Below, in pieces: positions 1 to 35,615 of a stretch of DNA of 64,000 nt; position 1 is the first letter of the stretch; each line of letters begins with the position of its first letter. The position numbers and the translations under genes are program-made. The DNA comes from Fragilariopsis cylindrus CCMP1102 (Eukaryota > Bacillariophyta > Bacillariophyceae > Bacillariales > Bacillariaceae), in NCBI GenBank assembly GCA_900095095.1, contig FMBT01000337.1, positions 236,669 to 300,668 on the forward strand, written 5' to 3'. The notes beneath the pieces are model-generated. The model did no database searches. It was not told where the DNA came from and saw nothing but the letters and a program-made list of their open reading frames with translations.

Positions 1-240
1 CCTGTTAATAAATTGAATACACAACTGTTAGAGTTGAGTGCCGAAAGTGCTGCCTTAACGGATGTGATGTACTTTTTAGATCGTGGTATGTATATGAATC
101 AAATTGATTGTACGACACATCTGAAAATGATACGTAAGCTTGCCAAAAGACAATTTCTGATTCGAGCACATTTGATTAAAATTAATCAATATACTGTTAG
201 TCAACAGCAGCAACAACAACAACAACAGCAAGTAAATTAA
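1..240 (+). CDS. VPS23: ESCRT-I subunit VPS23/TSG101, C-terminal end (5' part outside window)
   Basis: The frame is open from base 1 and ends at a TAA at 238-240, so only the last 79 codons are seen. The segment ALTDVMYFLDRGM, then IDCTTHLKMIRKLAKRQF and LIRAHLIKI, lines up with the steadiness box of TSG101/Vps23 (human pattern: D-E-A-I-F-Y-L, then ID...FLKHVR.LSRKQF.LRAL). In other eukaryotes this region packs against VPS28 and VPS37 in the ESCRT-I core, which sorts ubiquitinated cargo into multivesicular bodies. A polyglutamine tail of about ten residues follows the steadiness box; most family members end soon after the box, so the tail is an extension. The UEV domain expected at the N-terminus is outside the window. 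The family call is confident despite the short length because the spacing of conserved positions is gap-free. Confidence 0.8.
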   Translation, partial: PVNKLNTQLLELSAESAALTDVMYFLDRGMYMNQIDCTTHLKMIRKLAKRQFLIRAHLIKINQYTVSQQQQQQQQQQVN

Positions 241-1047
241 ATAATATAAGATTAAATTATTAATACCACCAATGTGCTGCAAATTGCTTCCCTTTTTTGT
301 GACTCTTTTTATTCGATAACCTACATGATGATGATTACAACAGGGGTCGTCACCACTACTCGATCGGATTATAAACAGCATTTACATCTAAGTTCCTTCG
401 ATGCTGAGCCTAACTATTTTTCATTACTGAATTTATTCCTTAGTAGCTCTTCCAAACATGCATTGCAGAGTTTTGAATCCTGTTCTGTATTATGTTTCCC
501 AGATTTTCATTGCTCAATGTGGCTGGAATTTTCCGAATTTTTTTCTATTTTTGATAGAAGATTGATTGTTCTTGTGCCTCTATCTGTTGATCTTTCTGAA
601 GCTGGCTAACAATTGAATATGCTCATAAAGAAAAAAAATAGAGGCTAGAATGGATATCTTTTTGTGATAGTAAAAAAGAAACAATGACAATGAAGAGATT
701 TTAAAAAACTTATATTCATTCGTGATTGATTTTGGGATTGAAATTATTTGGGCGGTCATTTTACACATTTCCTTGAGTCACATTTCACATTTCTGATCCG
801 AATCGAATCCCGAAATATTTTAATAAACTTAATGAACAATGAACATCATAAAAATGAAGTTGATGCTTTTGCTTTCGGATTGGTGTGATCGTATTCTGCC
901 GTGACGATTGGTGTGTTATATTTGATTTTGAGTGTTTACAGCATTGTATTTCAGCGTTACTGTCGCCTCCGATGTTCACCCGGTGATCAGTGAATCGAAC
1001 AAGAATTGAATCAAATCGAATCGAATCGAATCGAATCGGAATACAGT
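241..1047. other. Intergenic spacer
   Basis: This is the 3' flank of VPS23 and the 5' flank of the glycosyltransferase gene. Short open frames occur but none resembles a protein. A pentanucleotide repeat, TCGAA units, sits at about 1016-1038, directly upstream of the ATG at 1048. Confidence 0.5.
1010..1038. repeat. TCGAA pentanucleotide microsatellite
   Basis: About four to five TCGAA units, immediately upstream of the glycosyltransferase ATG. Confidence 0.7.
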
Positions 1048-4000
1048 ATGTTCCAAAGAAATCTTCATTCCAAGAAAAAAGCGCTGGAGTCATCCTCGTC
1101 ATCGATTCTATCCTCCGACATCGTCGATAATATTGAGAAAGACAAGAACGCAAATCGATTCAATACGAAGTTGACGAGAATAATAAATCTCCATCGAAGG
1201 TTGCTGCTAAGATTATTTTGTCTTCTGTCCTTTACTTTGGTAACATTAAATCTATGGTATCAGCCTCAGCCCACCCCAAGACGAATACCATGATGCAACA
1301 TATTATATCAGTGCCAACTCTACGGATAACGTCATCATTTCAACGCAACAGCAACGAACGAAGCAACAAAATTTCATCATACAACATGGTTTGAATCAGA
1401 ATCCAATCGCAAACCATGCATGTGACGGATATAGAGGGATATACCATATTGAAAAGGGTGACATCGGTGGGGCGGCTGGAACTGTTTTCTTTCAATTTGT
1501 TATCGGTCAAATTATATGGGCGGAGAAATATAATTTCAAACCTTGGGTGTACCTTAATAACGTTAGTCACATCGTTTATGATCCTATAGTTCACGGAAAT
1601 AATACCGGTGTGAACTTTACGATGCAAAAGGGTACGGAAATTTCATACATTCAACGGCCGATGGGACATAGAAGAGATGCGTATCCAGGACAAACCGTTG
1701 TGAATAATCCTGACAATTTGCGATCTTTTCATTATAATTTTGATGGAAATGGGGTTTGGGATAATTACTTTGAACCTATATCTGATTTTATTCCCGGTGA
1801 TAAATCGTGTCAAGATAAACCCCTAGTTACTATGGACTTATACCAAGTAACACCAGGCGTTCATGGATTTTCTGGTGCACCAAAATGTTGGAGGTACGAA
1901 TATCTTCCAGATTATATAACAAAGCCACATATACCCCTGAATGACTGGTTGGCACCTCAACGTCAATCTGCCCACGATGTATTGAAAAGATATATCCGAT
2001 TTAAGCCTCATATTAAAGCCAAAGCAGAATATGTTAATCCTTCCTGTTCCATCGAGACTAATAATGCATGTCTTGGGATTCATATTCGACATTCTGATAA
2101 GGCCGCTGGTCGACGAATACTTGATACGGATGAATTTTTACCGTACGTGAAAGCCTTTTTAGATGCTGGAGGGAAATGGATATACCTTGCGACAGATTCG
2201 GAGAAAGTTGTTGAACACATCAAAACTACATGGCCAGAGAATGTTCTAAAAGTTATTCGATCAATGGGAGATGACGTGGTTCGTTCAAATGACGAACAGG
2301 CTGTATTTGATATTGGTTCCCATCATCGTACCAATACAGAAATTTTAGTTGAGATCCAAGCTTTATCATATTGTCAATTTATGATTCATGGACTTAGCGC
2401 AGTAACTGAATCCAGTATATGGATCAATATTGATTTGCATTACACATCCGTAAATTTAGAAGATCCTGATCATTCCAACGAAAATGAATTTGGGGATCTG
2501 GTGGGAAAGGTACTGACTGGTGGGAATGCTAGTCAAATTTTGGAGAAAAGAAATTCCATCAATAATAATAATATTAATAATTGGTGGATGCCTAAATCAT
2601 ACGAAGTGCAATTTTCAACGACCACTCTAAATCAAAACCAAAATCAACTGCCGCATACTCAAGCATGTGATGACTCTACGAGTGGCATTCTTCATATATC
2701 GCACGTTGGTACGAATGCAGGTACCGGAGTAGCCTTCTTCACATCTGTTTTGAACCAACTCTTGTACGCAAAGAAAAATAATCTTACGCCATGGATTCAC
2801 TTGAGTAACGAATCGAAATTGATCTACGATGATGAAATCCACGGGGCAGCATCAGGGGGAGTCTCGGTGATTGAAGACATTCAAGATGTATTGATGATTA
2901 CCATGTGGAGAATGACAACATCAACAGCTCATTATTATACCCTGGTCCTGTGGTCGTTGAAAGTAGTAGACAGAAAAAAATATCACACTTCGTGGAAATG
3001 GCATCTGGACAAGCTATTTCCGTGGTGTCTCAGACTTTGTTCCAGAGAGTAAATCTTGTTCTGACAAGCCAGTTCTTTCCATGGATGAAGGTATGGTTTC
3101 TGCTATGAACTCGTGGAGTCCTTGGTCAAGCAAGGCCTGGCAGTATGACGATATTCCGAATGAATTCTGGAATCCGAAGGGTTTGACTTTGAAATCGTGG
3201 CTTGAACCAAGAGGATAAAAGCCAATGATATTGTCAAAAGATATTACAAATTCCAGCCTTTTATTGTTGAACGAGCTCAACAAGTGAACCCTTTCAATTC
3301 AACACCTTGTCTTGCTGTACATTTACTCAATACCGACAAGGAAGGAATACATCGGGAAAAATTTCCCCCCAACAAGTTTCGGGAATACTTCGACGCATTT
3401 GCTCGTGCCGGAGGTAAGCATATTTATATTGCCTCCGATTCAAGTCGTCCATTAGAATACATTATGGAGCATTTCCCATCTAATATACAAAAAATGATTC
3501 GGACTCAGGGTCCGTATGTTGTGCGGTCATCCTGGAAATGGCCTCCTCATATGCTTGAGAATCATCATCGTACCAACTCTGAAGCTCTCGTTGATATATT
3601 GGCGATGTCGAAATGCCAACTTCTATTGCACGGTAATAGTGCAATATCTGAGGCTACAATATACTTGAATTTAAATCTTCACAACAATAGTGTCAATATG
3701 GAAGATCCTGATAGGTTGAGTGTTAAAGAATTTGAAGCCTTGGCTCGACGAGTAGTAGAAATTCCAAGTGATGAGGCAACAACTGTCAATGCAACGAAAC
3801 TTCAACAAAGGTCTACTACAAAAATGAATGCTACAAAGGGTAATCTCCCTCCTCCTCCTGAGAATAATAACGTAGGAATTATTAAGGGGAATCATGATCG
3901 GAAATGTAGAAGAAATGCTATCGTTTATCTAGCACAGAAAAAACACTCTAGTTATGAAAGGGATAGTTATGGAAATTTACTAAAATCATTGGAATTAATG

Positions 4001-5107
4001 AATACAAATTATCTTTCTGTTCACAACCATCAGAATAATACAGATGTAATAATATTCCATACTGATGATTTCAATCAAGACGATATGGATATAATGGAAA
4101 CTAAATTCGGTTCATCTTTTCGAGAAGGACTTTATTTTATCAATCTACAAAATACATCATACTGGCAACGTCCAGTTGGCACCGTAACGACAATCCTTCT
4201 GCTGATTGGTATGCATATCCACTTTTCTCAGAAGGATACCGACAAATGATGCATTGGTATGCCATCGATATATGGCGTTTTTTCAAAGATTACGGAAGGA
4301 ACAACAATTGTTCGTATGAATATATAATGCGTTTTGATGAAGATTCTTTTCTAAGATCAAAATTAGATTATGATATATTTGATTATATGAAAAAGAATGA
4401 CTATATTATGGTTTTCGTCTTTGTTCGTATGAGATGCAAGTAACACAACGGATATGGACAATTTGGACTAAAATGACATCGAAGAAAGGATCACAAGTAC
4501 CACCACCGATACGTGATATTGATTTGAATATGTGTGGTATATACAATAATTTTTTCGTTACAAAATTATCCTTTTTTCAAGATGACAAAGTACAACGTTT
4601 TTTGAAATTAGTTGATCGACAAGGAATGATATACCGGAGACGATTAGGTGATTTAATGATCCATTCTATGGCGGTATATGCATTCTCACCATCTGAAAAG
4701 ATACATCGATTTTTGGACTTTACATACGAGCATAGTACAATTAATACAACAACTGGTTGTGTTATTTGGGGTGGTATCCAAGCTGGATATAATGATCCAA
4801 ATTCAAATAAAACATTAGATAAGTTTTATCAAGAAAAGTATTAGATCATAATTGTGCAACAACAACATCAGCAATAAGAAGTCCTCATAATCCGCCACCA
4901 CTGGCAGTCATCGATACATCTTACTTGATCCAAGATGATTTAAGTCCAACTTATCAACATCATCTTCCATCAGAATATGCTTCTACTACTACTACTACTA
5001 CTACTACTTTGAATAAAAATGAAAATGGGTATGGTAAGAAATTGAAACTAAAAACGATCATGGCTGGTAAAGTTGAATATCCTGGTCAAGGATTGTTAAG
5101 TGGTTAG
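1048..5107 (+). CDS. Giant type II membrane glycosyltransferase: two GT23-like modules plus a GT15-like module (frame broken)
   Basis: The ATG at 1048 opens a short cytosolic part and a single membrane anchor (LLLRLFCLLSFTLVTLNLW, about 1201-1260), as in Golgi enzymes. Module A (about 1420-2500) carries HIRHSDK, a match to the GDP-fucose-binding HxRRTDK motif of alpha-1,6-fucosyltransferases (GT23/FUT8, NodZ), followed by YLATDS and HHRTNTE. Module B (about 2665-3760) repeats the same order (IYIASDS, HHRTNSE, NMEDPD), but its motif reads HLLNTDK, so the arginine is lost. Module C (about 3900-4850) resembles GT15 alpha-1,2-mannosyltransferases (Kre2/Mnt1): YEYIMRFDEDSF, LNMCGIYNNFF, RRLGDLMIHSMAVY. 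A tail runs to the stop ending at 5107. The reading frame is interrupted at about 1275, 2880, 2960, 3000, 3217, 4180, 4400 and 4836; at 4400 and 4836 one missing base in a homopolymer explains the break. Fold assignment of A and B is by motif only. It may be an intact gene with sequence errors or a recent pseudogene. Confidence 0.7.
4980..5007. repeat. CTA/TAC trinucleotide microsatellite in coding sequence
   Basis: About nine ACT units encode a polythreonine run near the glycosyltransferase C-terminus. Confidence 0.8.
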
Positions 5108-5334
5108 TCTATTTTAGGTTTTCAGCAGAATTGTTACTCCTCGCTCAGTAGTCTACCAGTCACTTAATTAAACTGTATAATATCGTCGTTAATTTAATCA
5201 ATTATTTCGGTATTAGCTCTAGCTAGTGTATTGCATATCCTATATTGTTGAGTTTGGCGATCGTCCCATCGCACCTGTGACTACCATTGTCTACCATCGT
5301 CGACTTTTTGATGTGTACAATTGTATTGATTGTA

Positions 5335-6462
5335 TCATTGTGATTGTAATATATCCCATAATTCATCATCTGATTCAAATAATGATTCTATTCCAGGTCG
5401 ATTTAAATATGGATAATCACCAACAAAGCATTCAGCATCAGGGACATATATATCTGACATTGCACTTAAAGATTCAAATGTATCAGATGTACTTAATAAT
5501 ATACCAGCAATTGGCATACCAATTTCTATATTCAAATATTCTTCCTTAAGTCGTGAATGGATTTGTAATTCACGATTTTCATCATCATTTATCTTTATAC
5601 GTATCAAATATGGTATACCTGTTATTTCTTCTAATACATCACGATCATTTTTATAATCTTGAAATTCATTTAAATTATACTCTTCAATTGATGAATTATC
5701 TTCAACAACACATACGTCATCAATCCGTCCTAACAATATTGATCCATATAAACCAGCATTATCACGTTCTTCTCTACGATTATCATTACTCCGAAAATTA
5801 TTAAAGAAATTGTCATCATTCTCATTATCATCAAACATCCATGGATCAACTAATTGTCTTCCACCTAATAATTCCCAATTCCTTTGTCTTGCTTTAAAGT
5901 CTGGTGATAGTATAGCCCAAAATGCAAATAATGAACCAACTACTGTTGCCAAAAAACTACCAACCACAAATGATAGAAAATAGGAAAAAAATATACCAAT
6001 AAAACCAATAATTGATGATTCTAATAATCTATTATATGTTTCACGTTTTGTTTGACCCCAATACGTTGCGTATTGTAATCCACTTGGACTACCAACAACT
6101 AATAATTCGTTTATATCATCTACTGGTAATGGTACTAATGCCATATTTAGACGTGTAGTCGTAGTATACATACTAGGTTCTTGCTGTTGTTGTTGTCGTC
6201 GTTGTTGTCGTTTTCGTTGTTGTTTTTGCAGCTGAAATTTTTGCTGTCGTCGTCGTTGTTTAGGTGCTAATATCATTGATGATGATAATGATGATGATGA
6301 TGATAGTGACGTCGTCCAAGCTGCTGCTATTTGTGCTGTTATTACCAACATTATCATAACATAATAATAACAATAAAAAGCAATATTGTTTCTTCTTCTT
6401 CTTCTTCTTCTTCTTCTCCCTATACAAGCACAGGCTGTATGAACAACCGATGATGGCTTCAT
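5335..6462 (-). CDS. Predicted plastid-targeted membrane protein of unknown function
   Basis: This is a clean 375-codon frame with an ATG at 6460-6462. The N-terminus has an arginine run (encoded by a TTC-type microsatellite on the + strand), a hydrophobic signal segment (YVMIMLVITAQIAAAW) and a possible cleavage site AAA|WTT. Tryptophan at +1 is one of the residues accepted in the diatom ASAFAP plastid motif. A Ser/Gln/Arg-rich transit-like stretch follows. The mature part holds two adjacent membrane segments (SSIIGFIGIFFSYFLSFVV and FLATVVGSLFAFWAIL, around residues 145-185), then a soluble domain with YGSILLGRIDDVCVVE and IEIGMPIAGILLST. I do not recognise the family with certainty; the pattern resembles conserved plastid proteins of unknown function. 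It is tail-to-tail with the glycosyltransferase gene, 227 bases apart. Confidence 0.8.
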   Translation of the reverse strand: MKPSSVVHTACACIGRRRRRRRRRNNIAFYCYYYVMIMLVITAQIAAAWTTSLSSSSSLSSSMILAPKQRRRQQKFQLQKQQRKRQQRRQQQQQEPSMYTTTTRLNMALVPLPVDDINELLVVGSPSGLQYATYWGQTKRETYNRLLESSIIGFIGIFFSYFLSFVVGSFLATVVGSLFAFWAILSPDFKARQRNWELLGGRQLVDPWMFDDNENDDNFFNNFRSNDNRREERDNAGLYGSILLGRIDDVCVVEDNSSIEEYNLNEFQDYKNDRDVLEEITGIPYLIRIKINDDENRELQIHSRLKEEYLNIEIGMPIAGILLSTSDTFESLSAMSDIYVPDAECFVGDYPYLNRPGIESLFESDDELWDILQSQ

Positions 6463-6661
6463 CTTGCTTCTTTTACTGTTTGTACCCTACTTTATTGATT
6501 ACTTCGTTAGAAAATAATGTGTGATTATGTGAAGTGCGAAAGTGTGTAGATTTATTATTTATTCTACTAATTTTACGACAACGAGATGATAAAAAATCTA
6601 TCGTACATCAAATTACTTATAGCCAAAATCCAATTAAATAGTAACAGATTCATTAGAATAA

Positions 6662-6745
6662 GCATTCTTGCCCGAGTTGGTCTAAGGGGTTGCACTTAAG
6701 ATGCACTATACGTCGTATGCGGGGGTTCGAATCCCCCAGAATGCA
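6662..6745 (+). tRNA. trnL-UAA: tRNA-Leu (anticodon TAA)
   Basis: The 84-base sequence folds as a class II tRNA. The acceptor stem pairs GCATTCT (6662-6668) with AGAATGC (6738-6744), with discriminator A at 6745. The T arm is GGGGG-TTCGAAT-CCCCC, the long variable arm forms ATAC-GTC-GTAT, and the anticodon loop CTTAAGA places TAA at positions 34-36. The A-box region (GTTGGTCTAAGGGG) and B box (GGTTCGAATCC) are both present for internal RNA polymerase III initiation. The outermost anticodon-stem pair is mismatched. No intron is seen and CCA is not encoded. Confidence 0.95.
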
Positions 6746-8672
6746 TAATTCTTCTTTTTGTCTATCAGAGACTCTTCTTTTCATTAGGATAGTATTATGA
6801 AGTTTCAACTATTCATTTTGGTAAAGAATTAATTGACTTTAGATGATGCTGATGATTTCTAACTTCTCCTTTGTTTTTTTGTTGTTGTGAAATCGCAAAA
6901 GACATTTCATAGAGAAGTAGAGAATGTGGAAAGTATTGTTGTAGATAAGGAAAGAAAGAGCAATCGAGAGAGATCCAACCCTAACCACCCTGACCCTGGG
7001 CAAATTTGTAGATACTGTTATGATGGGTTACTGCTGCTCATGTTATTGAGATCAAGAACCATATATATAGCCAGATTGCTGCTAAATTAAATATGCGGAC
7101 TAGCATCCTCATCCTTTTGTAGCTTCAACAATGCATGATACATGATGTTGTGCCAGGAGGGTTATTTGCAAAGTGGTTATGAGAATCCATGCATAGTATG
7201 CGAGTGAGTGTCCAAATAATTCAACAAATAGCAGTGCTGACCAGTATTGATCCAACCAAGCTACTACTACTCTAAGAGTGCAAGTAATAGTAAATGCTCA
7301 TAGCCAAATCCAATGGACAAATCCAATGGATAGAATTTAACAACAACAACAACAACACACACAGTAAGTCTACAACAACACACATAGTGAATCACATAGT
7401 AAGTCTATAACAACAGCACACAAAATCAGTCTACAACAACAACATCTTTATGAATACACTACTTTTGACTACTGTTTACTAGTTCTGTTGTTCCTTTTCT
7501 TTCCCCTGTGCTGCCTTCTGGTAACCATATCAGCAGAGACTGTTGTACACAATCATAATAGGCTTTATACAATCATTTCATCAGAAGAGGCTATCACACA
7601 ACGGTTAGTATCAAACTGATGGATTCCATTATCAACACTGCTATAGGTATCATTGTGTATTGGTGTTTGCCAACTCGTTTGTGGCTTATGAATATCTGGA
7701 ATAGATGATTGTATTTCTTTGTATCTTCTAGTAATCTGAATGGTCAAAGATTCTGTTATTGCAGCTGTTTATGATCCTATTTGATGAGAGGTTTCTCCAA
7801 CAAAATCCATAAGTAGAAGATATATAACAGACATAAAGGATTGATGGTACACTTTTCTAACTTGTTATGTATGATACTAAAATAAGTCTAATACAAAGTG
7901 TTTTGTAGATTATCACTGATAACAACAGTAAAACATATGTCTTCATTTGACATCTAGTCACTTCAAGTATTTACTATAATATTGACCGCAGCGGTCCTGC
8001 CTTTGCAGACAGGGCACCGCCATTTGTTCGCTACAGTCCATTTTACTAGTTATCAAACTCACCTCACCCTTGGTAATGTGTGAGTGGTAAGAAAGAAATG
8101 CATATCAATCCAACTGATTCCCTTCTCAAATGGAAAAGTTTTCTTCTATCTCCACTCACCATCAGCTCATCACTCTGAAAGTGATGAGATGGCTCATCTG
8201 GTCTGTTCAAAAATTTGTTGTAAGTTCTATGTGATTATGAGAAGGTAAATTTTACCACGGACTCTCCACTTCTGCTTATTTTAGTAAGTGTTTAACAGTA
8301 GTCTTTATAGTATCATTCCTGAAATTTGCAGTTGCAGCATCTTTTAGGTGATAATTTTTCCTTGGGGTTTTTCGCGCTACTACTACTTGTACTCCACCAA
8401 TCACTTTCATTGCCATGACACATGAAAGTCTTGCCTCTTAGTTCCATTATGTAGATAAGAAAAGCAGCAGCATCAAGAAAAGGTAGCAGTAAAATCCAAT
8501 CAATTTGATGCTAATTTATAGAATTCTTCTACATTGACTGATGCTATTGTTGCTATTGTTGTTGTTATCGTTTGTGTGTTTAACGTATATCTGGCATGTC
8601 TAAAAATAAGAGGGGTGTAGCTTGTATCCGTGATTCACAGTTCACGTTTGAAACAAAATCTCAGGCGACAGC
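6746..8672. other. Long intergenic spacer
   Basis: In 1.9 kb I see no convincing gene. About 7335-7450 contains degenerate repeats built from AAGTCTACAACAAC-like units with CACACA/CACATAG interruptions, and about 7300-7330 holds a repeated CAAATCCAATGGA. Two short palindromes stand out: GACCGC-A-GCGGTC at 7984-7996 and a hairpin with 8-base perfect arms at 8167-8187. Open frames here (for example 6887-7090) look random. Confidence 0.5.
7335..7450. repeat. Degenerate tandem repeat of AAGTCTACAACAAC-like units
   Basis: At least three imperfect copies of an A(A/G)TCTA(C/T)AACAAC unit alternate with CACACA/CACATAGT stretches. It lies in the non-coding spacer downstream of tRNA-Leu. Nothing suggests a function. 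Confidence 0.5.
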
Positions 8673-16867: not shown

Positions 16868-17639
16868 TATGTGTAGTTATCTCAAAAAGAATAAAAAATT
16901 GTGTCGTCTTAGATTTGACGATTGAACAGAACCAGTGCAAGTTGTATGATGTTTGATGCGTGAATTAAAATAAAGCTGCTGCTATATTGTCTCTCAAGCA
17001 CAGAAAATTGATCTCTTGTACAGTATATGATTGTTTGTACGATAGCCGATACACCCTGTTTCGAAAGGTGAGTGGAAGGGCGAATATTGGATGATTTGCT
17101 GTGGGTAAGGATGGAATGGATATTCTTGGTGTGTGTCAGTGCTTCTCGCCTTGCATGCAACATACAAAATAAAAATTTGACGAAAATTTTGTTGGTCCTC
17201 GTGGCAGTTTAGTTTCTTATGCGCTTGAAGTTGAAAGTGCGTACCGGTAGCGTGAAATCATAATATTATTGAATTATTATAGGTCCAAGTGAATTTTTGG
17301 CACCTCCTGTCCGTCACCACAGAGCTTTTTGAGACGTGTATCTTTTTCAATTTTGTTTTGATGGCTATTCGTTTATTTACTGTTATTATTATTTGCTTCC
17401 TCGATCAAGAAGTAACTTCTTAGTATCACAGTATTGTTCAATGTCGACTTGAGTTCATTACAATAGAGATGTATTGTTATGGGCGTATTCATTCAAGATA
17501 GAACAATCCAATGCTAATCTAATACAATTCAATCAACACTCCATTTTCCTTTTTGGCAACAGCGAGCAGCAGCACTGACTTCTTTCATCTGCCTTTATTT
17601 GTACACGAAGGCAGAGTGCCATAGCATACCACGCGAAAA
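16868..17639. promoter_or_regulatory. Divergent upstream region shared by PPR (-) and NYN (+) genes
   Basis: The 772 bases between the two ATGs hold no convincing gene. It is the only upstream sequence available to both genes, so at least part of it must serve as a promoter for each. No specific motif is claimed. Confidence 0.4.
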
Positions 17640-19736
17640 ATGATCGGTTTCAGAGGAGATGATTTTGGATACTATTGGAATGGTAGAAATACATTATTAC
17701 TATTGCGAACGATGATAACAATCCTTGCTATTATTGTTCTCGATCTTTGCCAATGTTTTTCGAACAATCAACATCAACTTATTTCTAGATCTTTCTACTC
17801 GTCGTCGACGAATACACATTCATTATATAATACTGCTGTTGGAAGAATACGTTGCAATACCAATACGCACAACAATAAAGGACGACGACGACATCTATCG
17901 TTGAAGGGATTGATCAACCATAATGTCAATGACGCTCTACCATTGCCAACAACACCAAACGTTGTCCCACTAAAGGTAATGCTTTTTGTGGACGGGACTT
18001 GGCTCTATTACAGTATATACGAGCGTGATTATGAACGTGATGTAATAGCACAAAAATTGGGTAAAAATTGGAAAGACGAATCAACACCTGATTGGTCTAG
18101 CTTACCAAGAGTTGCCTGTCAAGCTCTATTGAAAGATCCGAAATCGTCGTGGTCGGCAATCATGCCGGTTGGAAGTAACACAACAACAACAACGTCCCCA
18201 TCAGCAGCAGCAACACCAGCACCACAAACAATACGACCCATCGAGGTATCTCGAGTTATGGTGTACAGTTCTATGCATCGAGATACGAAACAGGATTCAT
18301 TTCGGTATAAAATGTTTTCAGAAATGAGCAAGGCAGGATTTGATATTAATATGATGGAAACTGTGGGGAAGGGAGAAAAATGTGTCGATATTCAATTAGC
18401 GGTGGATATGTTGTATTATGCTACCGTACCAGATGCGTACGATGTGGCACTACTTCTAACAGGTGATCGTGACTTTCTTCCTGCTGTGATTCGATGTCGT
18501 CAAAAAGGTCGACGGATAGGTCTAGTCAGTACAAGATCAGGATCATTAGCATTTGAAGATACACCGAACTTAAAAGACTACGATACAATATTCTTGGAGG
18601 ACTATGTGAACGAATGGATCCGGAAAAAGATTCCCGAAGAGATGCGTAGCAGTAGTAGTAGTAGTAGTAGTAGTTCTACTTCATCTGGAAGAAAAAGATC
18701 ACCACAGGATTCATCATCAGCAGTTACAACTGGGAAAAAGGAATCATCAAAAATATCACCTTATACATTAAATATAGTTATCAAAAACTTTATAGAGAAA
18801 TCGGGAAAGTCTAAAGTTTCATCTCGAGATGTTGGTAGACATTTGAAAGAGCTAACTGTTGATGGAAAAACATTAATCAATGAAATCAAGGCAGTATATG
18901 GTGGACTGTATCAATTTTTGTATCTTTCTGAGATTTACCTCGTTGAGGCAGATTCTAGAAGGCATGCCAAGGCATTTTGGGTATCCTTGAATGGTCGTGG
19001 CGATAGTAGTGATCCGAAACATGAAGACGAACACAGTTTAGATGCGGAAGGGGAGTTGAACGAGGATGAGAAAAAATTCATGAAGTCGTATAAGCAACGA
19101 CCAGAAAAGGATAAGAACGAAGTGTACGAATTTACAATTAAAGATCCCGATCCGGGTTTCGATGTAGTTTCTAATCTTTCCAATGCTACCGATACAATAT
19201 TGGCTCCTATTAATTCTGATGACATGGAATGCAAGTCGTCATCATTGGACTATAGCACACTTACTGTTGTCGAGTTAAAGGCGATATGCCATGAAAAAGG
19301 TCTAAAAGTTGCCGCTAGGAAAAAAATTGATCTAATAGAGCGAATTGAAGAACACAATGCAAGTGAGAAGAAGCACAAACAGGAGGAGGTCAAAATTACG
19401 ATAGGAGATTTGAAGCCTGAAAGGTATCTGGAAATGCTAGTCCTTGAATATCTCCATGCTACAGGAGGTCAAGCGAGCTCAAGGGATGTTGGCCGTTATT
19501 TGGCAGCAAACAAGGCTAGCTATAAAAGGCGTCTTACAGAGGAGCTGAAAGTTCGACCTATATCTGCGCTAGTAGAATTGAAAGAAATCTACGGTAGTCT
19601 GAACATCTTTGTCAAAGAATTTTCATATCTTTATAGTAAGACGATATCTTCAAAGGGTCATGAATTCTATATAGGTATCGACGAGGATTCGGCACAGAAA
19701 CCTCCATCCGTTGAAGGTACGATGGCACGAAGGTGA
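17640..19736 (+). CDS. NYN (PIN-like) nuclease candidate with LOTUS-like and SAP domains and a secretory-type leader
   Basis: This is an intact 698-codon frame. The N-terminus has a hydrophobic leader (LLLLRTMITILAIIVLDLCQC, then FSNNQ), compatible with a signal peptide and possibly with plastid import, although +1 Phe follows Cys rather than Ala. The NYN/LabA-DUF88 domain (about residues 110-300) keeps its acidic residues: VMLFVDGTW, VDIQLAVDMLYYA and LLLTGDRDF. A polyserine run (about 338-350) leads to a LOTUS/OST-HTH-like unit (about 374-436, SSRDVGRHLKEL...YGGLYQFL), a SAP motif (about 535-570, LTVVELKAICHEKGLKV) and a second LOTUS-like unit (about 595-667, SSRDVGRYLAAN...YGSLNIFV). NYN domains are metal-dependent RNA nucleases and LOTUS domains bind RNA or helicases, so RNA cleavage is the likely role. 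Targeting and the LOTUS calls are less certain than NYN. Confidence 0.85.
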   Translation: MIGFRGDDFGYYWNGRNTLLLLRTMITILAIIVLDLCQCFSNNQHQLISRSFYSSSTNTHSLYNTAVGRIRCNTNTHNNKGRRRHLSLKGLINHNVNDALPLPTTPNVVPLKVMLFVDGTWLYYSIYERDYERDVIAQKLGKNWKDESTPDWSSLPRVACQALLKDPKSSWSAIMPVGSNTTTTTSPSAAATPAPQTIRPIEVSRVMVYSSMHRDTKQDSFRYKMFSEMSKAGFDINMMETVGKGEKCVDIQLAVDMLYYATVPDAYDVALLLTGDRDFLPAVIRCRQKGRRIGLVSTRSGSLAFEDTPNLKDYDTIFLEDYVNEWIRKKIPEEMRSSSSSSSSSSTSSGRKRSPQDSSSAVTTGKKESSKISPYTLNIVIKNFIEKSGKSKVSSRDVGRHLKELTVDGKTLINEIKAVYGGLYQFLYLSEIYLVEADSRRHAKAFWVSLNGRGDSSDPKHEDEHSLDAEGELNEDEKKFMKSYKQRPEKDKNEVYEFTIKDPDPGFDVVSNLSNATDTILAPINSDDMECKSSSLDYSTLTVVELKAICHEKGLKVAARKKIDLIERIEEHNASEKKHKQEEVKITIGDLKPERYLEMLVLEYLHATGGQASSRDVGRYLAANKASYKRRLTEELKVRPISALVELKEIYGSLNIFVKEFSYLYSKTISSKGHEFYIGIDEDSAQKPPSVEGTMARR

Positions 19737-35543: not shown

Positions 35544-35615
35544 GGTCCAATCCGAGAATCGAACTCGGGACCTCCTGCACCCGAAGCAGGAATCATGCCT
35601 CTAGACCAATTGGAC
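35544..35615 (-). tRNA. trnP-CGG: tRNA-Pro (anticodon CGG)
   Basis: On the minus strand the acceptor stem pairs GTCCAAT with ATTGGAC, and the discriminator is C, as is usual for eukaryotic tRNA-Pro. The anticodon arm is CCTGC-TTCGGGT-GCAGG, placing CGG at 34-36. The D arm (TGGTCTAGAGGCATGA) and T arm (CCGAG-TTCGATT-CTCGG) are normal, so both internal promoter boxes are present. Length is 72 bases without an intron. Confidence 0.95.

Follow-up and report, generated by a model that had tools for sequence, protein, structure and literature searches.

A gene close to the start of a 64,000-nucleotide stretch of the genome of the diatom Fragilariopsis cylindrus CCMP1102 (contig FMBT01000337.1; this whole stretch is called the window) carries two tandem modules, A and B, related to family GT23 glycosyltransferases, followed by a module of family GT15. 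On balance, it is read as a single gene whose product, a type II membrane protein of the Golgi some 1,357 residues long, would have three modules in the lumen and place mannose and fucose on one glycan. The GT23 and GT15 families were already known, and what appears new is their probable joining on one chain; a search of open-licence papers returned no description of this GT23-GT15 fusion.

The limits and motifs given for the gene in an earlier note on this DNA were found where it had put them (Table 1): the start is the earliest ATG to follow an in-frame stop, by ORF translation, the last codon is TAG, and YLATDS, IYIASDS, HHRTNTE, HHRTNSE and IYNNFF all occur in the frame translations. The note had also described three modules on one chain, and the modules are indeed present in the order A, B, GT15, but they are split over several frames rather than lying in a single open one. 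Within the window, the coding path has to switch frame seven times, near 1273, 2905, 2990, 3210, 4180, 4411 and 4838, of which the note made no mention; module B is broken at the second to fourth of these sites and the GT15 module at the last three. The anchor that it had proposed has a counterpart in an N-terminal hydrophobic stretch at about 1201-1257 (best 19-residue hydropathy 1.86, residues 52-70), although the break near 1273 would have to be an error for this putative type II anchor to be joined to the modules. The first part of the GT15 module, to about 4200, is assigned by position, the Pfam match spanning the second part only.

Table 1. Parts of the three-module gene and neighbouring features, in window coordinates
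Feature	Position	Strand	Basis or remark
Start codon, ATG	1048	+	ORF translation
N-terminal part, putative type II signal anchor	1048-1272	+	open frame f0; hydropathy
Module A, GT23-like	1415-2524	+	profile matches, residues; frame f1 open 1250-3049
HIRHSDK in module A	2081-2101	+	alignment, motif position
ATD in module A	2189-2197	+	alignment, motif position
Conserved Ser codon in module A	2396	+	alignment, motif position
A-B linker, Asn-rich	2525-2659	+	open in f1, both contigs
Module B, degenerate GT23-like copy	2660-3763	+	profile matches, alignment
HLLNTDK in module B	3320-3340	+
B-GT15 linker	3764-3892	+	open in f1
GT15 (Kre2/Mnt1/Ktr4-like) module	3893-4841	+	PF01793; PDB Ktr4, Kre2
RFDEDSF in GT15 module	4330-4350	+
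C-terminal tail	4842-5107	+	open f1; codon score
Stop codon, TAG	5105-5107	+
375-residue frame just downstream of gene	5335-6462	-	no Pfam match
tRNA-Leu (taa)	6662-6745	+
Frame with NYN and SAP domains	17625-19733
tRNA-Pro (cgg)	35544-35615	-

Modules A and B are alike far above chance, with 138 of 360 aligned positions identical (38.3%), and module A as query finds the second half of module B both in a second contig, C574 (E 1.3e-47), and in the contig of the window (E 8.3e-41). These matches support an origin by duplication, as the earlier note had proposed. Searching the genome assembly (67.9 Mb, 818 contigs) with module A returned, besides the three-module gene, one single-module paralogue of A type (L022:3605-5350, contigs C711 and C760). 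The paralogue is a single open frame of 581 residues with an N-terminal hydrophobic stretch, judged by eye, and is identical to module A at 149 of 367 aligned positions.

GT23 transferases are inverting enzymes of the GT-B type, and modules A and B are supported, at the profile level, as their remote relatives. Direct searches are weak. In Pfam, module A reaches 14.9 bits (E 0.012) with FUT8_N_cat, below the cut-off of 27.6 bits, and NodZ (cut-off 28.3 bits) is not listed; module B is unmatched and the paralogue has no relevant match. PHROGs and NCBIfam, searched with module A and the paralogue, gave nothing over cut-off, and a PDB search with either one alone gave no fucosyltransferase. A scan of the diatom's own genome with FUT8_N_cat gave zero matches, as did its controls, and is uninformative; a single-sequence structure model (mean pLDDT 36.2) is too poor for the fold of module A. 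The link to GT23 runs through relatives, a bacterial protein and proteins from viral contigs.

The bacterial relative was found by tblastn (E 1e-20) in a Longimicrobiales MAG (L026:4890-7019), and passes the Pfam cut-offs for both FUT8_N_cat (3.4e-10) and NodZ (1.9e-8), with no GT15 match. It shares with the diatom gene a tandem of GT23-like modules of which the second is degenerate, but the residues lost in its second module are other ones (K to G, D to N and S to A), and the diatom modules are longer by about 45-50 residues within their first half. Among 395 genomes of its phylum, a match was found in its own genome only, and tblastn of the bacterial protein gave one plasmid record and zero phage records. 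In a tree of five rows, the two bacterial modules pair at 100/100 and stand apart from the three diatom modules (A, B and the paralogue), which branch in no settled order; the bacterial second module is a long branch of odd composition. Because the two bacterial modules join each other, the bacterial and diatom duplications are likely, though not firmly, separate events. The bacterial tandem adjoins frames that, on a reading of their translations, resemble an ABC-type polysaccharide exporter.

Viral scans with the diatom-only alignment of three rows (A1: module A, paralogue and module B) and with P0001 gave no match; alignments A2 and A4 gave 5 and 43 loci. GT23-like proteins are encoded in 43 IMG/VR loci (L042-L084), some on contigs that are nearly alike, and the frames read have 264-280 codons, one being cut at a contig end. 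Two of the viral proteins were scanned with FUT8_N_cat; one passes at 29.2 bits (E 5e-7) and the other falls short at 25.8 bits (E 6e-6). Both also match GT11 at 19.2 bits, below the cut-off, so that membership in a wider fucosyltransferase group is possible.

Comparison of profiles brings these proteins and the diatom modules together. With the A1 profile, FUT8 is the only fucosyltransferase matched in the PDB (E 0.013). A second alignment, A6, has zero diatom rows and is made of 14 viral rows, a selection from those 43 loci, and a plasmid protein annotated as NodZ; it matches NodZ (5.1e-16) and FUT8 (1.6e-12) in the PDB, and A1 by hhalign at 99.5% (E 3.4e-23). Circularity is thereby lessened, with some selection left, since the viral rows were found with alignments that hold module A. 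A 29-row non-diatom profile matches module A at 3.9e-31, module B in the joined reading at 1.3e-23 and the paralogue at 2e-15 (search space 177,635), and matches the unbroken window piece 3206-4246, which contains part of module B, at 2.5e-19. None of 3,000 shuffles came under E 100 with this profile, nor did any of the 84 other window ORFs (86 were kept, six overlapping the gene, and two of the six hold A and B). The GT23-like character that the earlier note gave to both modules is thus upheld by profile comparison, although the direct Pfam match stays under the cut-off.

The donor-site residues of FUT8 are given as His363, Arg365, Asp368, Lys369 and Ser469 (PMC11468063, part of the text). 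In the 31-row alignment used for residue counts (A5), the first His is present in all 31 rows, the Arg in 30, the Asp in 28, the Lys in 15 (13 others have His) and a distal Ser in 30. Module A has the H, R, D and K at alignment positions 224, 226, 229 and 230, aligned with the HVRRTDK of FUT8, and the paralogue too carries HIRH. NodZ, FUT8 and brown-algal GT23 proteins have in common with module A both H-x-R-x-x-D-K and ATD, although the second Arg of the FUT8 motif is His in module A. The conserved Ser of module A lies in the expected region and would pair with Ser469, short of which the printed FUT8 alignments stop. Unlike NodZ and FUT8, the diatom modules stand in tandem, are fused to GT15 and are too distant for the Pfam cut-offs.

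At the aligned family positions, module B still has the His, the first and second Asp, the Lys and the Ser, but it carries Leu at position 226, and given that the Arg is lost in B alone of the 31 rows, module B is probably not catalytic. What had been described as two GT23-like domains would then be one enzyme and one degenerate copy. That all three modules are catalytic, with B active through an altered donor site and the chain having three activities, seems quite unlikely: the residues kept in B and its identity to A argue for such an activity, but the Arg that only B lacks corresponds to a residue listed for the FUT8 donor site, Arg365 (PMC11468063, part of the text).

The GT15 module of the earlier note is confirmed by direct matches. 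The joined reading matches PF01793 with E 2.7e-16 and 60.3 bits (cut-off 25) over profile positions 152-324 of 325, and the unbroken piece 4434-4841 alone does so with E 6.2e-13 and 49.3 bits. Matches in the PDB comprise three distinct sequences: Ktr4p at 3.5e-14, Kre2p (1s4n) at 6.7e-13 and, at 2.1e-9, another Ktr4 that is putative. Two motifs set the module apart from Ktr4p and Kre2p, with DED aligned to EPN/EPD and NFF to NFE. The Glu of NFE, the proposed nucleophile of Kre2p, is lost, and Phe stands instead. The position of the metal-binding Glu is Asp, and the His aligned to His-411 of Ktr4p is kept, by positions counted by hand. In Ktr4p the metal is bound by Glu-262 and His-411 (PMC4546622, part of the text), and with Asp for the former and the latter kept, a metal site in the diatom module is plausible. 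The module is like Kre2, Mnt1 and Ktr4 in its PF01793 match over cut-off, a putative type II anchor and a His that aligns with the metal-binding one of Ktr4p, but differs in ending a long chain after two other modules and in its DED and NFF motifs. Among the best candidates scored, this locus, present in two contigs, is the sole GT15 locus that the genome search returned. One study, as far as its available text goes, reports no GT15 from the green and red algae that it surveyed (PMC3797821), and a table in another, available in part, gives for each of two genomes a count of 5 for GT15 and 16 for GT23 (PMC6260743).

The reading of one chain depends on the frame breaks being consensus errors. 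The locus occurs again on contig C574, which is 99.5% identical over window positions 1-7764, and the two contigs read side by side have nine break sites in total. Five are common to both (near 1273, 2990, 4180, 4411 and 4838); those at 2905 and 3210 occur in the window only, and C574, intact at these two of the window's seven sites, is broken at two others (window 3090 and 4004). At each of the four private sites, the broken contig is one base short of the other, and a single missing base would account for eight of the nine sites. The exception is 1273, where there is a one-base difference between the contigs and either missing or extra bases would fit. Over window 1-7764, the contigs differ by 14 one-base indels, one of 3 bases and one of 18 bases, but clear single substitutions number just two, beside a short end that does not match, and such indels occur outside the gene as well. 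The flanks of contigs C608 and C574 have 24 substitutions in 10,575, 37 in 4,489 and 57 in 2,867 aligned bases, with 36, 15 and 16 gap openings in the same three alignments. As the flanks carry substitutions too, C608 and C574 may represent two haplotypes and not a single sequence that was assembled in duplicate.

In codon usage, scored after training on eight long frames from other parts of the window, the frame of the path scores best from 1276 to about 5100, with scores near or below zero in some path windows near breaks. In the N-terminal part, f0 equals f2 up to about 1125 and f2 is slightly better from 1126 to 1350.

If the breaks were real, the gene would be a pseudogene and the three-module protein would not be made in this strain. 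The five shared sites fit such decay, as does a module B already without a key residue, and the intact paralogue shows that not every gene in the assembly is broken. This reading is nonetheless considered unlikely, given the four sites at which the other contig is intact, the fit of nearly all breaks to one missing base, a path that crosses no in-frame stop and has the best codon usage after 1276, and contigs that differ chiefly by small indels, also outside the gene. Consensus errors are favoured over decay, short of proof, and the five shared breaks are the weak point, implying either that the errors are systematic or that the gene is truly broken. A programmed frameshift was rejected because the sites are too many and four of them private, and an intron at the break near 1273 because there is, by eye, too little room.

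A tandem array of two or three separate genes or transcripts is judged highly improbable. An A-type module does stand alone in this genome, and the yeast GT15 enzymes are stand-alone (PMC4546622, part of the text), but both linkers share an open frame with the modules on either side, f1 being open over 1250-3049 and the frame being open again over 3206-4246; f1 is also the best-scoring codon frame in both linkers, and the path has no stop between modules. A single chain is thus the likely product.

In the proposed enzyme, module A would be an active-looking GT23-like transferase using GDP-fucose, and module B, its tandem copy without the donor-site Arg, most likely a non-catalytic partner that helps to bind the acceptor, in folding or in contacts within a dimer. 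The last module would be a GT15-type, metal-dependent transferase using GDP-mannose, and the chain would probably transfer both sugars, mannose and fucose, onto one Golgi glycan, with either of them first. What is seen directly is which modules there are, how they are ordered and related, that B has lost its Arg and that the frame is open across both linkers; beyond this, the proposal predicts an intact chain in the cell, a Golgi site, the donors, the activity, the order of transfer and the product, for which the earlier note had suggested a cell-wall or frustule-coat glycan. A two-site enzyme on one glycan, with B passive, is suggested because both putative donors are GDP-sugars of one pathway and a large fused Golgi enzyme is known from a diatom. 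The Man II/GnT II of Phaeodactylum is likewise a fused type II Golgi glycan enzyme, of 1453 aa (PMC12507850, part of the text), but its activities differ, being those of a mannosidase and a GlcNAc transferase. GDP-fucose is probably made in this diatom, since the genome carries probable pieces of GDP-mannose 4,6-dehydratase, which score 285, 231 and 41 bits in two contigs each, none reaching the cut-off of 415 alone; in the control for this search, related enzymes match in 14 of 14 genomes. That a second, dead copy is useful is suggested by the degenerate second module both here and in the bacterial tandem, whose duplication looks separate.

In a 2024 survey, GT23 went undetected in the diatoms screened, whose genomes each had about 3 members of GT10; the paper describes fucose-containing diatom polysaccharides that are reported by antibodies and assays and whose structure is not settled (PMC11468063, part of the text). 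Fucosyltransferases for N-glycans are known in Phaeodactylum, according to titles referenced in PMC12507850 (part of the text). More tentatively, and with considerable doubt, the two-activity Golgi enzyme, with its fucosyl and mannosyl sites and the dead GT23 copy holding the acceptor, could build the repeat unit of a fucose-containing coat polysaccharide and so fill the reported GT23 gap of diatoms. If module A is a fucosyltransferase, the gene and its paralogue are testable candidates missed by standard HMM cut-offs, and the fusion points to mannose as a possible partner sugar. The arrangement may help to explain how diatoms build coat sugars.

The genome has 27 silicon transporter matches, of diatom type (best E 1.1e-226), some of which were compared as a control for assembly errors. 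Those on contigs C600 and C639 are 85.6% identical over 1,275 bases, and the frame is split in both; those on C401 and C648 are 91.3% identical, and their open frames are long, at 715 and 694 codons. Since C600 and C639 carry paralogues and not copies, this control is no more than suggestive. Two silicon transporter genes (L033 and L034) have split, overlapping frames, perhaps from further assembly indels.
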